The translations under genes and the position numbers were made by a program. A stretch of 64,000 nucleotides of DNA from Xestospongia bergquistia. Its lineage: Eukaryota > Porifera > Demospongiae > Haplosclerida > Petrosiidae. The stretch lies in NCBI GenBank assembly GCA_963965975.1, contig OZ014425.1, positions 4,105,501 through 4,169,500 on the forward strand. Direction: 5' to 3'. Shown one piece after another: positions 39,356-46,844 of this stretch. The stretch's first letter is position 1. Each line of letters starts with the position of its first letter. The notes under the pieces were generated by a model. The model saw only the letters and a program-made list of their open reading frames with translations, searched no databases and was not told the DNA's origin.

Positions 39356-42300
39356 TCAAAGCTCATCTTTTGGGTTTTCTTCAGCCTAAAATAACAACAA
39401 AATTAGATGACTGCATCTCATAATTTTGTACTTACTTCAGTCTTTTCTTCCTCCCTTTTCTCTTCCACATCCTCCTTTTTCTCTTCTACATCAGGTTCTT
39501 CTTCCTTCTTATCATCATCTGTTACTTCCTCTTCCCCTTCCTCTTCATCTGGAGTCTCAAAAACTTCTTCCTCAGTCTGAAAGATAAAGTTATTGATTAA
39601 AAAACAAAATTAAACCAAAAAATATGAGGATACAGACACAATTACAATTGGACACAAAAAACTGACAAGTGAAGACTTTATTAGATATGCTTCAGTACTT
39701 ACTGGAGCATTGACGTCTACTCCTATACTCAGTCGCAACATACGCTCTATACGACCTGCAAATTCACTAGATTCATCAAGGAAATAGCCTCCTCGTAGTT
39801 TTGCTGTATCCAGAAGTATCTGAGCCAAATCAATTGTCACTTCATCTTTAGGATTAAGCTCGACTCTTTGCTGAAGTTCTTTTATAAGTGGATGACGAGG
39901 ATTAATCTCTAGAGTCTTCTTTTGATTCAAATAAAATCTATCATAGTGGGGACATTAAATTAAATTGAAATGAGCAGGTTTCACTTACTCAGTGTTGGGG
40001 TCTTTGCTTTGAGCATAGGCCTGTGCTCTCATAACTCTTTCCATATTACCAGACCAGGCATATTGGTTAGCAACAAGTGCACAAGGAGAAGTGGTCAGTC
40101 GATTGCTCACTACAGCTTTCTCAATCTGGTAAAAGAAAACAAAAGATAAACCAAATCGTATCATTTATTACTAATTGCTATATTTGGTTTAATGTATCAC
40201 CCGACAGGTTCCAGAACCACAGTATGAAATACTGACAGTCTGGGTTTTGAAGGTGTTCTAATTTTGGCCAGGGCGAAGATGAATTACCCATTACAATAAA
40301 GACAATTCATAGAAGTAACTGGCCAAAGTGTCTTTGATTTCTAATACTTACTACAAAAGTACAGTGGGACAGTCTGAGATCAGCATATTTTACTACTGAC
40401 TGATCCCTACTCTAAACATAAGTATTAAAGTATGTAGTTTTGAGTTTCAGACTATCCCACTGGGCCATGGACCAAAGGTCAGACTGTCTTATTGTAACTT
40501 ACTGATCCAGAAAGAGCAGTTTCTGTGAGCCATGTAGTTAAAGGTTTAAATATTTCCACTAATTTCTCAAATTGTTGCTGATGTGCTTCACTTTCATCTG
40601 CAAACTTAAGACCTTCTTTAGCAGCACTGTGGAACTTCTTGCCTAAAAAGATAAAAGAGGCAACAAACTACGCTCAAAGTGTTTCATTTGTACAAGGCCT
40701 TGCCTTCATATTCTGGTAAAGCTTCCATACAGTATTCATCAACTGGATCACTAAGATAAAGGACTTCATAACCTTTCTTTAACAATCGCTCCACAAATGG
40801 CGACTCTTCAGCCTATACAGAAAAATGTAGTAAAATAGAGAAAATAGCCAGTACAGGCTTATAGGCAAATTGGTAAATACAATAGCATGTAAAACAAACT
40901 CTATTGTATTGGTATTATATACTGAGTACATTAATAAAAATACTACTGAATGTTTACTAAACCACACCTCATTATACATAGTAGCTCACCTCTTTCCTAG
41001 TGTTAGCAGCCATAAAATAGATGTGTTCTTGTTTGTCCTTCATCCTTTCAATGTACTGATCTAAGCTAGTCAACTTCGATGGATCATTGGATGACTCAAA
41101 ACGTAGTAACTTAGCAACACGACTCTTGTTTGGGAAATCTTCAACTACACCTAGTTTAATGCTAGTACTATATTGTGCCCAGAACTTTTCATAGGTTTCT
41201 TCGTCTAACTTCTTGAGCATATCAAGTGCTTTACGGACAAGTTTCTTCTTGATAACTTTGAGAAGTTTGTGTTGTTGAAGTGTTTCACGTGAGACATTCA
41301 GAGGCAGATCATCAGAGTCAACCTTAGAAGGGAAAGAATTGAAACAAGTTATTATGTCAATGTATTACTTACCACTCCATGCACAAATCCCAAGTAACGT
41401 GGCATCATATCTTCAAAGTTATCAGTTATAAACACTCTTCTTACATAGACTTTGATTTTATCAGTGGGTTTTGCATACTTTGTGAACAAGTCATTAGGAG
41501 CAGTCTGAGAGAGGCAGAGAACATAAAAACCAAGTGAACACAAGGTCCTACAACTTACAGCTGGAACATATAAGATAGCTTTAAAAGTGACTTCACCTTC
41601 AGCAGTAAAATGAATTTTAGCTAGAGGGCTTTCAGAGTTCTACGAGACACAATAACAATGTTACAACCTGTTACCATCTAATATCTTTGTACCTTTGTAA
41701 ATGCTTTATAAAAAGCTTCATAATCTTCATCATCAATTTCTTTAGGACTAGCCATTTATTTTTTAAATTTTATGTCATTACAAATTATGGTCTTACTTTC
41801 TTAGCCAGATAGGTTTAGTATCATTGACAAGAATCCAATCCCAAACTGTTTTTTCAACCTAATTAAGATGACATGAACAATGTGTGTGTGATATTATGAA
41901 ATATTGATCCCTACCTTCTTAGTTTTTGGTTTATCTCCTTCTTCTTCAACTGTTGCTTCATCATCATCTGTTCCTTCCTCTTTCTTTGTCTCAGACTCTT
42001 CCTCTTCATCAACTGGTTCCTCAACAGTTTCAGTCTAAAGACAGAAAGATACAATAAGCATATCAAGTTGTAACTAATTAAACACTATTGTGACTCTGTT
42101 TAGCTTTTGTGTACCACCTGACGGTTCCAGAACAACAGTATTTTCAAGAACTGAGTCTGGGTATTAAAGGTGTTCTCATCTTGGCCAAGGCAAAGATGAG
42201 TCATCCATCTTATTAAAGAATGACACAAGAGTACACACTCATTGGCCGAGTCATGTATCATTACATGACTACTTTATACTCTTACATGTACACATTACAT

Positions 42301-43912
42301 CACGTTACATCATGTTCTACACTACAAACATAAATTTTTAAAAATCTTACAATATAATATGCGTTTATATATGTGTGTGAATCTTCTTACCCTACTGCCC
42401 CACAGGTAAATAGGAAAGTTAATGAATTGACTGTATTTTCCCACAAGTGTCTTTAGTTTTTCATCTCCTAAAAATTCTTGTGCCTCCTCTTTTAGAAACA
42501 ATGAAACTGTCGTTCCTCTCTTCAGTGTATCGCCACGAGGATCCTCAACAACAGTGAAAGACGAGGAATCAGATTCCCAAATATACTGCTTGTCATCGTT
42601 GTGTTTTGAAGTTACGACCACACGATCAGCAACTAAAGAGATAAGTTAATAAAGTTGGAGTGTATCAGATAATATGTACCCAAGAAAGATGAATAGAACC
42701 CTACACCAAATTGACCAATTAAATCATTAGCAGTGCCTGCAGAGTCCGCCAAAGAAAGTTTATCCAAAAACTCTGTTGTCCCTGACTTGGCAATGGTACC
42801 AAGATTAGTCTCAAGATCTTTCTTTGTCATGCCTAGAAATAAACAAAATGGAGTCAATTTGAAATGTAAACGAGAGGGACTGACCTATCCCTGTATCTGT
42901 TATGTGCAAGGCGTTATTTTCTTTATCGGCCTTAAGAGGTAAAAGTCAAAATTCAAATACAATAAAATTTGACAGAATATCCCTACTTTAATTTTAACAG
43001 AGAGTTCTTCAGTGGCTCTCAAAGCTGTTTTGTCAGTTAACGACATGAAACGAATCTTGTCAAGAGCATCAGATGCGTTTGAAATAAGTTCTCGTAGGAA
43101 GATCTACAAAACAAAATTACTATTGTCCAAACAAGTCATGACAAAGTGAAAACTACTTAACCACAAACAAAAAGAAGTAGAAATCAATAACTTTATTTAG
43201 TCTGTTTTATAAACAACATTACTTTCACTTTCACAATTTAACACCCATGATTAACTACTTTCATAACAACAGACTACTAATTCATGACACTACAATTTAC
43301 CATATAAAATCAAAGCCTCTTGCCTCCTATAACATACCTATGGTGTCATATGTAATCATTGTGCCATGTCTCTTAAATCATCATCACATAAATACTACCC
43401 TATATTATCTTTCATCAGCTGAAATAATTAACTCACCTCTTTGTTTCTATAGAGAGAATTAATAATCAGCTGCATCATTCTGTTGACCTCAGCTTGAAAT
43501 GTGAACTTTTCTGCTTTCTCTCTTAATGCTTTCATTTCCGCTACACTAAGTCCATCGAGTTTAATGGCTTCTTCCTCCCTAAAATAAATACCATAATTAA
43601 ACATACAAGAGTTTCTTAAAAAATTTTAAATGTTAATAATATTCAACTCACTTTTGTATTGTTTCGTCATCAGTTCGAAGCGCATCTCTACTAGCACCAA
43701 TATCAGGGTCAACAGTTGGAGGTGTTTCATTGACTACATCATCATCACCATCATCTTCTGCTCGACAACCTGTAGACAATATACACAAATATAATTATAT
43801 ATAACAATATTATTATTAGCATATACATGTACATTGATATGGCAGTGTTTTTGTTACCTGCAAAACAGGCTAAGCTAAGCAACCCTACAAATAAAACGAA
43901 CTTCCACTTCAT
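39356..43912 (-). CDS. HSP90B1: Endoplasmin / GRP94, ER HSP90 chaperone
   Basis: Nineteen exons encode 815 residues (human protein about 800). They are 43912-43858, 43769-43652, 43578-43437, 43103-42987, 42930-42885, 42832-42680, 42632-42391, 42034-41915, 41858-41797, 41747-41693, 41639-41559, 41504-41373, 41322-40990, 40812-40704, 40642-40503, 40125-39989, 39937-39703, 39576-39436 and 39385-39356. A signal peptide ([18 protein letters not shown]) leads to the HSP90 ATPase ([36 protein letters not shown]), an acidic charged linker, the middle domain ([19 protein letters not shown]) and dimerisation domain. It ends with a long acidic tail and KDEL for ER retention. It folds secreted and membrane proteins with ATP. 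Introns can be as short as 49 bp. The intron after 40704 begins GC (GCAAGG). Confidence 0.97.
40195..40310. repeat. Dispersed repeat copy in GRP94 intron
   Basis: GACAGGTTCCAGAACCACAG...GAAGGTGTTCTAATTTTGGC matches a second copy at 42113-42215 in another intron of the same gene. It is non-coding. Confidence 0.6.
42113..42215. repeat. Dispersed repeat copy in GRP94 intron
   Basis: Second copy: GACGGTTCCAGAACAACAG...AAAGGTGTTCTCATCTTGGC, followed in both by a GC(G/A)AAGATGA segment. Confidence 0.6.
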
Positions 43913-44004
43913 CTCTGTAATAAATAATGCCTTCGTAAGATCTGAATATCAAAAATAGGTGGGTTAGCAAATTTATCTTGCCTTCAGTCCCTCGCTAATG
44001 CGAG

Positions 44005-44023
44005 CGTGGTCTATTCTGATTGG
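44005..44023 (-). promoter_or_regulatory. ER stress response element 1 (ERSE)
   Basis: On the minus strand CCAATCAGAATAGACCACG matches the ERSE consensus CCAAT-N9-CCACG exactly. In vertebrates NF-Y binds CCAAT and ATF6/XBP1 bind CCACG to induce ER chaperones in the unfolded protein response. Confidence 0.85.
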
Positions 44024-44045
44024 TCGAGTTGAACATGTGCTCGCT

Positions 44046-44064
44046 CGTGGATGAATTTGATTGG
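44046..44064 (-). promoter_or_regulatory. ER stress response element 2 (ERSE)
   Basis: CCAATCAAATTCATCCACG on the minus strand is a second exact CCAAT-N9-CCACG match. It lies 41 bp from the first, in the same orientation, between the GRP94 and CRELD start codons. Confidence 0.85.
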
Positions 44065-44151
44065 TTAGAGTAAACCGGGAACCTCGCGGTTTGTATTTTA
44101 ACAAATCAGCTGTGGGACCTGGCCCTGTATATGACAGAGTACACATCTAAG

Positions 44152-46318
44152 ATGAAGTTCTGGTTTACTCTCTTACTGCTTGCCTTGATATGGAGCCATG
44201 GGGTAGCCAAAAAGAAACGGAAATCTAGTAACAAAGGAATATGTGAACTCTGTCATGATTTTGCCTCGGCATTTCAAAAAGTGAGATTATTTTTTTTTAA
44301 ATTCATCATGGTACATTGGATAATGGTAATTGCTTGACAGGGTTTAAAGAAAACTGAAAAGTCCACGTACACTGGAGGGGATGCCCATTGGGAAGAAAAA
44401 AACAATAAAGTATTTGCTAACAGGTAACATGTTTATAAAATAAACATTGATGATGTTAGTAATCATATTTAACTCCCTTTTAGTGAAATTAGATTGGTTG
44501 AAATTTTGGATTCAATGTGTTCCAGCAAAGATTTTGAAGTAAGTTGTTATGCAAACTACTTGTTGCCATGGTAACACATGTCATCTTAACAGTGTATTAA
44601 GTTGTTAGAGAGGTACGAGGAGGACATTGAAAAATGGTGGTTAAAATTGTAAGTTTTACATTACATTAAAGAATGATCAACTTGCTCTCTCACTCAAATA
44701 GGAGAAACAATGGTCATTCTGATTTCCGTCAGTGGTTATGTTACACTCATGCTGATGGTATGTACATTAAATAATTATTGAATGTTCTATTCTCATTTTA
44801 TTTTATTTAGTTTGTTGTCCTAAAGGCACTTATGGACAAGATTGTAAAGGTACTAACTAACAGACATTGCCAATTTTATCCTGTTCTTTTTAGAATGTCC
44901 TGGTGGTAAAGACAATCCTTGTAGCAGCCATGGTACTTGTAAGGTAACAAGAGAACCATAGAGGAAGTACTTATCTTTTGCCATTAGGGAGAAGGAAACA
45001 AGGATGATAAAAAAGGAGCTGGGACATGTGTTTGTAATAAAGCATATAAAGGTGAACTTTGTGACACTTGTAATGACAGATACTATCTTGATGAAAACAA
45101 ACGCTGTAAAAGTGAGTTGTTTAACCTAAATTTCTCCAGTCCTGTTGTAAAGTTAATATATCTTGTGAGTTTCCATATTTTACTTTTAGAATGTGATGAT
45201 GCATGTAAGGAATGTACAGGTCCTACTCCTTTTAACTGCACTGAATGTGCAAAGGGATTTAAAGAGGATGATGACAATGAATGCAAAGGTAAAATGAAAC
45301 AGGAATTGAAAATGGTATGGCTTATCTTCTCAGATATTGATGAGTGTGTGGAATTGGAAAAGACTGACTGCCTCAAGACAGAGTTTTGTAATAATATTCG
45401 AGGGGCCTATGAATGTGCTGGTTAGTGGGAAGGAAATCCATATTGGTATTTACTCTCTCTCTCTCTCTTTAGAATGCCATTATGCTTGCAAAGGTCCTTG
45501 CACAGGAGGTACTGTTGATGATTGTGTAGAATGTAGTGAAGGATACCAAAATGTGTCAGGACGTTGTACAGGTAGATGAATAAAGATACACAAAATCAAG
45601 TAATAATTTGTCTTAAAGATATTGATGAATGTGAGGAAGGTTTATCTGATTGTAAAGAAGGTACTTACTGTGAAAACCGTGAGAGTACTTTCTTTTGTCG
45701 AGGTATAGTGTAGTTGTCACCAATATTTCTAGTGTCGTTATCTCTTGTAGATTGTGATTATGCATGTACCAAGTGTACATCAGGTGGGCCTGAAGGCTGT
45801 ACTGAATGTGCTGATGGTTTTGCTATGAAAAATGACACATGTGAAGGTCAGTTTAGCAGATAAGCAACAAACTATTCCTTTAACATTGATGGCAATGTCC
45901 ACTATCCTATTTGTGTCAGTAGTACTTACTGTTGTATTAATATTTTCCTTTAGACATTGATGAATGTGAAGGTAGTCCAAATCTCTGTAATACAACATCG
46001 GAATTGTGTATCAATGATTATGGCTCCTACAGTTGTAAATGTAAAGCAGGCTATACTCGAGTACGTAACCAATGTATCACATGGGAAGAGGCGGAGGAAC
46101 GTCAACGCCAACAAGAATTGAAAAGAGGCAAGAAGAAGAAGAAAGCTAAAGCAACAGGTAAAAGGGATGAACGGGTCGTTTTTCCTTGGTACCACCTCCT
46201 CCTACCAGTGACAATATTTTATTTGAGTTATAAGTATGTCAAACCTACGATAGGAACATCAATTGGACTATTGTTTGGGTTTGTTGCAATGGGACTAATA
46301 GCTCACAAAATGGTATAA
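44152..46318 (+). CDS. CRELD1: CRELD (Cys-rich with EGF-like domains), membrane-anchored form
   Basis: Fourteen exons: 44152-44280, 44341-44423, 44484-44538, 44593-44648, 44702-44757, 44811-44849, 44894-44943, 44988-45111, 45190-45288, 45334-45420, 45473-45571, 45619-45702, 45751-45846, 45954-46318; 473 residues. The second ATG is preferred, because MKFWFTLLLLALIWSHGVA is a clean signal peptide; an upstream in-frame ATG is at 44131. After a CELC/W-rich N-terminal domain (DFRQWLCYTHADVCCPKGTYG) come laminin/furin-type repeats and calcium-binding EGF units (DIDEC at several exon starts). The end has a Lys-rich linker and two hydrophobic passes (LLLPVTIFYLSY; IGLLFGFVAMGLIA). CRELD proteins act in the ER and secretory pathway, in disulphide folding and receptor trafficking. 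Nearly all EGF-type exons share phase 1. Confidence 0.95.
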
Positions 46319-46539
46319 TGTATCTATGGTACCATTACTGAACTATATGTATAAATGATGGAATTAATATTGGCCCAGGAGTGTTCAATTTTAGTTTTCA
46401 AATTTTTTTACATTTTTGTAATCAAATTTCACTTCATCTAATATTGCATAAATTCAAATGTTCACTCCTTGTTAATTGATAATGTGTAATGATACCTCTT
46501 GCCCTTGTTTCAGCTGTTTCTGGTCTTTTCTCCCCACAG

Positions 46540-46844
46540 ATGATGACAATGACAGTGATGATGATGATGATGATGATGATGATGACGATGACAGTGATGA
46601 TGATGATGAAGAAGAGAATGAACCAGAAACAGCTGAGACAGAGTTAGAGGTCAATGCTCAGCCTTCTAACACACCTACTGATATAAATAATAATAATGAT
46701 AAAGAAACAAATGTTGTTTTGACCTCTTCTACCAACGACACACCTACCAGTGACTCCATACAACCAGACCAATCAACATCTCCAACTGAAGCATCAGAAC
46801 CATCTCCAACACCTGTCTCCGATAAAAAACATGAAGAGCTGTAA
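46540..46844 (+). CDS. CRELD1: Alternative last exon of CRELD, soluble HEEL form
   Basis: TCTCCCCACAG precedes an exon reading DDDNDSDDDDDD..., then a Ser/Thr/Pro-rich stretch and KKHEEL before the stop. An internal donor in CRELD exon 14 (GCAACAG|GTAAAA, exon end 46157) leaves phase 1, exactly what this exon needs. Splicing 46157 to 46540 would replace both membrane passes and give a 521-residue soluble protein ending HEEL, a plausible KDEL-type retrieval signal. Vertebrates use a separate soluble gene (CRELD2) for such a form. Use of this splice is inference; reading it as a separate small gene from ATG 46476 is less likely. Confidence 0.65.

Follow-up and report, generated by a model that had tools for sequence, protein, structure and literature searches.

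Two exact ERSEs in the putative bidirectional promoter of GRP94 and CRELD in the sponge Xestospongia bergquistia

In the genome of Xestospongia bergquistia the genes for GRP94 and CRELD lie head to head, and two exact ERSEs were found between their start codons (239 bp, positions 43913..44151 of the window, by which we mean the whole 64-kb stretch of DNA analysed here). This CpG-rich interval, presumed to be a bidirectional promoter, probably serves two ER folding genes, with both ERSEs as its unfolded-protein-response switch. That this genome makes use of the ERSE cis code is very likely, as the placement of exact ERSEs elsewhere in the genome suggests, and the animal probably switches on its folding machinery as ours do. 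Protein binding, induction and co-induction at the interval are what we infer from these sequences.

The minus-strand gene (39356..43912, 19 exons, 815 aa, complete gene model) is, judged from its product, GRP94 (endoplasmin). The product matched the Pfam HSP90 family, and among PDB proteins it matched Endoplasmin best (1071 bits vs 646 bits for cytosolic HSP90-alpha), which places it nearer to the ER form than to the cytosolic one; it ends in KDEL, and by eye its N-terminus is hydrophobic and signal-like. The gene model contained AG acceptors, GT donors and one GC donor. The GC-AG intron has its donor at window 40703 and is located between exons 14 and 15. A search of the genome contigs for relatives of GRP94 gave just two bacterial matches, with 34% identity.

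The plus-strand gene (44152..46318, 14 exons, 473 aa) is CRELD by its predicted domain layout, a WE domain followed by EGF domains. PF11938 (DUF3456), which represents the WE domain, scored 41.6 bits against a cut-off of 21.1, and EGF_CA came after it; the PDB matches were other EGF proteins, with no CRELD chain among them. Twelve CRELD matches were revealed genome-wide, ten of them in this gene and the other two spanning residues 348-392 only, in the EGF region; by these matches, a single CRELD gene was found in the genome. The first-pass annotation had named the two genes GRP94 and CRELD, and both names agree with the Endoplasmin match and KDEL end of the one and the DUF3456/WE and EGF domains of the other.

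The interval is bounded by the GRP94 ATG at 43912 (minus strand) and the CRELD ATG at 44152 (plus strand), and an in-frame ATG at 44131 would make it 21 bp shorter. It contained 10 CpG, where 239 bp of the window have 1.8 on average, and its CpG observed/expected value was 0.93. Both ERSEs are on the minus strand, that of GRP94. The GRP94-proximal ERSE (CCAATCAGAATAGACCACG, 44005..44023, with GACCAATCA as NF-Y core) precedes the GRP94 ATG by 92 bp and that of CRELD by 128 bp; the GRP94-distal ERSE (CCAATCAAATTCATCCACG, 44046..44064, with AACCAATCA as NF-Y core) precedes them by 133 and 87 bp, respectively. The spacing of the pair is 41 bp start to start, about four helical turns. The strand, spacing and 239-bp distance between ATGs were as the first-pass annotation had described them, and these two are the only exact CCAAT-N9-CCACG sequences in the 64-kb window. 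The consensus of the NF-Y site is RRCCAATSR, and its wider core was present as RRCCAATCA in both sites, so that each combines an exact CCAAT-N9-CCACG with a good NF-Y CCAAT half, the sequence form of an ERSE (ERSE-I). We found no ERSE-II or UPRE in 43913-44151. A GCTCGC or GAGCGAGC stretch directly abuts each ERSE (window 43990-44005 and 44036-44046), and the stretch at 43990-44005 forms an inverted repeat, CTCGC-N4-GCGAG.

Chance does not explain the ERSE pair. Through 100 dinucleotide shuffles of the 64-kb window, a mean of 0.02 exact ERSE was obtained and two occurred in none; through shuffles of the CpG-rich interval alone, at least one match appeared in 14 of 40,000. One might still regard the two sites as ordinary NF-Y/CCAAT boxes in a CpG-rich promoter of housekeeping type, with CCACG halves present by coincidence, and the richness of the interval in CpG would fit such a promoter. 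We consider this explanation highly improbable. None of the 40,000 interval shuffles gave two exact N9 spacings, and the genome-wide distribution of the element bears on it in both directions.

In the 146.46-Mb genome, 79 exact ERSEs were counted vs 37 for the reversed pattern. The reversed pattern is an imperfect control, without the CpG of CCACG, and for this reason spacing controls were added. CCAATCA-Nx-CCACG with spacings from N2 to N18 gave 83 sites vs 52 in the reversed control; counted as distinct spacers, N9 had 12 and N13 had 13, and every other spacing had 0-5. Flanks were read at 35 of the 79 exact ERSEs and neighbouring reading frames at 29, the sites read including, besides others, all 16 CCAATSR ERSEs with a single-occurrence spacer and one copy of a CCAATGA repeat that occurs seven times. 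Among the 35, ten contained the full RRCCAATSR core, and seven of these ten were located 54-133 bp before the ATGs of ER folding genes, which argues against the housekeeping explanation. The remaining three comprised L011 and L017, within reading frames, and L009, beside no recognised gene.

A gene-first check, independent of any selection of genes by their ERSEs, gave 29 thioredoxin-domain matches forming 17 clusters, and at two of the 17 an exact ERSE lies no more than 1.5 kb away (P ~5e-4). Through the seven full-core sites, the N9 peak and this check, the proximal-promoter placement of exact ERSEs at ER chaperone genes is above chance. A Fisher test of six of 12 N9 sites vs none of 71 sites with other spacings near known ER genes (the zero judged by eye from positions) was set aside as biased, because it was their N9 sites that had led to some of these ER genes; binomial values were also set aside, resting on an assumed 50-200 ER genes with 300-bp promoters. 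We do not take all 79 ERSEs as functional, with L011, L016, L017 and L018 inside long reading frames, and the copy read of the C9 repeat (L060) inside a frame that by eye resembles a receptor-phosphatase gene.

CCAATCA-N13-CCACG was in excess too. Ten of its 14 sites were examined, and in five of them the second half continued as CACGTG. This excess is a point for the housekeeping explanation: in this genome NF-Y boxes also stand at a set distance from a second kind of motif. Against it, no ER folding gene was recognised by eye at the ten N13 sites. Through the same two observations we rejected the N13 peak as a variant of ERSE, and its sequences suggest a composite of NF-Y and E-box sites held at a fixed distance. 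The N13 loci included L029, L032, L033, L034 and L038, with CCACGTG in five of the ten, and L032 adjoins a gene that looks like PPAN.

Returning to the exact N9 element, we found it before GRP94, calreticulin, PDIA3, PDIA6, DNAJC3 and a DNAJB9-type gene. At GRP94/CRELD two full-core ERSEs are present, and all their distances to both ATGs are in the 54-133 bp range. The calreticulin gene (L010; PF00262, 1.8e-57), whose product carries KDEL, has a gap of 126 bp between ERSE and ATG. DNAJC3/P58IPK (L013; best PDB match DNAJC3, 3.9e-46) has a gap of 54 bp, and the DNAJB9-type ERdj (L014), a DnaJ protein whose N-terminus is signal-like and which was named by eye, one of 67 bp. For PDIA6 (L015; PF24541, 1.3e-7) the gap is 73 bp; its best PDB match was PDI-like 2-3 (3.9e-64), and chains of PDIA6 itself matched at 1e-35 or more weakly. 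For PDIA3 (L053, named by eye) the gap is 79 bp and the ERSE points the opposite way to the gene, as it does at CRELD. The arrangement is like that of the mammalian HSPA5, HSP90B1 and CALR promoters, in which an exact CCAAT-N9-CCACG is near the gene start (according to the available part of PMC8301375, which treats ERSE-I as established in mammals). At about 4903-5150 of L015, PDIA6 and a methionyl-tRNA synthetase gene apparently lie head to head, with the ERSE-bearing interval between them.

Other ER folding genes contained weaker elements or none. Six ER-type PDI genes were recognised by eye, with an exact ERSE at PDIA3 and PDIA6; no exact ERSE was found within the stretches read of the PDIA4-, PDIA5- and TXNDC5-like promoters. 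At ERSE spacing, imperfect elements were detected in MANF (AACCAATCAAATTTTGCCATC) and XBP1 (GACCAATCAGATTCAGCCAGA), and together with the element of P4HB their second halves are degenerate (CCACT in P4HB, CCATC in MANF and CCAGA in XBP1). The human XBP1 promoter contains an ERSE (PMC8301375, seen in part), in contrast to the imperfect element of the XBP1-like promoter here. A tRNA-Gln (CTG) gene was found just upstream of the MANF promoter (L052, 1111-1182, minus strand).

The trans factors expected for such elements have candidate genes in the genome. NF-YA is encoded by two exons with 55.1 and 34 bits. An ATF6-like gene showed 73% identity across 26 basic-region residues, a weak match (E 0.005) that ranked behind a CREB3-like match; the exon that follows holds its leucine zipper, the two exons joined gave bZIP_1 at 3e-14, and a membrane-type segment was seen by eye after the bZIP. 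ATF6 has been traced to unicellular holozoans (PMC4736632, available part). An XBP1-like bZIP gene, named by eye (L050, G000 C7:1567300-1570300, minus strand; bZIP_1 9.3e-12, best PDB match CREB), contains a predicted IRE1 intron of 20 nt bordered by two CNGCNGN loops with stems GGGU/ACCC and AUUUCU/AGAAAU. As in known XBP1, cutting each loop at its usual place would excise these 20 nt and fuse the bZIP frame with a second, long one, which here ends in DLDSFIDL. When the short stretch was folded alone, the double hairpin had -10.4 vs a minimum of -15.9 kcal/mol, with stem pairing probabilities of 0.04-0.07. Eleven matches to IRE1-type RNase domains were found in the genome. The best match is on C12, and a cluster of IRE1/RNase L-type Ribonuc_2-5A domains, some with stops, is located at C5:7736358-7834971.

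A vertebrate-type cis code in this sponge is strongly supported by the genome-wide placement of ERSEs and by the genes for NF-YA and the ATF6-, XBP1- and IRE1-like factors, which upholds the proposal of the first-pass annotation that the same code is used here as in vertebrates. In the mechanism we propose, NF-Y would occupy both CCAATCA boxes, and unfolded ER proteins would lead to binding of processed ATF6 and/or IRE1-spliced XBP1 on CCACG, nine bases from CCAAT; ATF6 requires NF-Y, and XBP1s binds independently (PMC8301375, in the part available). The occupied ERSEs would then increase GRP94 transcription, and the same ERSEs would also raise CRELD, because they are located mid-interval and are able to act in either orientation. 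In our judgement, induction of GRP94 by ER stress can be expected with high confidence, and co-induction of CRELD is moderately probable.

Alternatively, the ERSEs may serve GRP94 only, with CRELD transcribed constitutively from the shared open region and the adjacency of the two genes due to a compact genome, a possibility that we regard as rather unlikely. The sponge Amphimedon has 11,379 genes arranged head to head with TSSs less than 1 kb apart (PMC4773876; its main text contains neither CCAAT nor NF-Y), so that a head-to-head position by itself tells us little. The orientation of both ERSEs is towards GRP94, which would suit service to GRP94 only; yet the distances to the two start codons are alike (87 and 128 bp for CRELD, 92 and 133 bp for GRP94), and the ERSE at PDIA3 is reversed as well. 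The other half of the PDIA6 pair, the methionyl-tRNA synthetase gene, is an improbable ER-stress target, and in the mouse CRELD2-ALG12 pair the ALG12 side is less responsive, both of which again favour a one-sided response; CRELD itself, however, is of an ER protein family, and one mouse member is induced by ER stress (both mouse statements from the part of PMC3091781 that was available).

The mouse CRELD2-ALG12 pair, one of the nearest known parallels, is a precedent for a CRELD gene whose bidirectional promoter contains an ERSE, and speaks for the two-way reading that we prefer. As in mouse, CRELD here is head to head with an ER gene and the ERSE is inside a short interval (less than 400 bp in mouse, 239 bp between ATGs here). 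Both mouse mRNAs increase under ER stress. Direction and distance of the ERSE were without impact in mouse, and the whole interval was hardly responsive in reporters. The sponge arrangement differs in its partner gene, GRP94, and in having two ERSEs, both facing the partner (mouse statements as given in the accessible text of PMC3091781).

ERSE outside vertebrates is not unprecedented. In plants, ERSE-I is likewise a composite of an NF-Y site and a bZIP site in UPR genes, with a different bZIP factor, bZIP28, acting with NF-Y (PMC3935401, as far as its text was available). Because plants use ERSE-I with NF-Y, its occurrence in an early-branching animal is less surprising than the first-pass annotation had stated. 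In the worm hsp-4 promoter the elements deviate and are ERSE-II-like (PMC6448932, in part), whereas the exact ERSEs assigned here to ER genes stand before genes other than BiP, the textbook target; the exact elements would fit retention, because those of the worm deviate. Among the titles that searches of open-licence PMC listed, none dealt with an ERSE in a sponge, and as far as those titles reach, the GRP94-CRELD pairing and the occurrence of exact ERSEs upstream of several ER genes in a genome of this kind are new.

The broadest reading, which we hold to be evenly poised, is that the sponge has a whole ERSE-I regulon (GRP94-CRELD, calreticulin, PDIA3, PDIA6, DNAJC3 and the DNAJB9-type gene) worked by NF-Y with ATF6/XBP1. 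In it, one two-way switch, the GRP94-CRELD interval, would raise two ER folding proteins together. If this is true in a sponge, the vertebrate-type cis code would date to the animal ancestor and the deviating elements of C. elegans would represent a loss; if vertebrates, a distant animal and plants share the code with its nine-base spacing, it would be older than animals or have been reached repeatedly. The target genes can be named beforehand from sequence in this genome, and therefore the age of the code is a question testable in it. Placed beside the unrelated mouse CRELD2-ALG12 pair, GRP94-CRELD also raises the possibility that CRELD genes gained a stress promoter together with another ER gene more than once.

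The CRELD gene has two predicted ends. Its plain reading frame ends by eye in a hydrophobic, two-pass-like membrane segment of CRELD1 type. A predicted alternative last exon (46540..46844, plus strand), with its acceptor before 46540 and the donor after 46157, would replace this end by an acidic tail that terminates in HEEL, a KDEL-like ER retrieval signal, with 521 aa in all; CRELD2 has an end of this kind. The region 45954-46844 may yield two forms, a CRELD1-like membrane form and a soluble HEEL form from the 46157-to-46540 splice. The analogy with CRELD2 drawn in the first-pass annotation has to be corrected: one CRELD gene was found, with a CRELD1-like plain frame, and the predicted spliced end is the soluble one. 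The likeness is to C. elegans crld-1, a single CRELD gene in which alternative last exons give an isoform with two membrane segments and a KDEL isoform; the domain layout here is that of CRLD-1, and the predicted HEEL takes the position of KDEL in the worm CRLD-1B (PMC6245729, in its available part).
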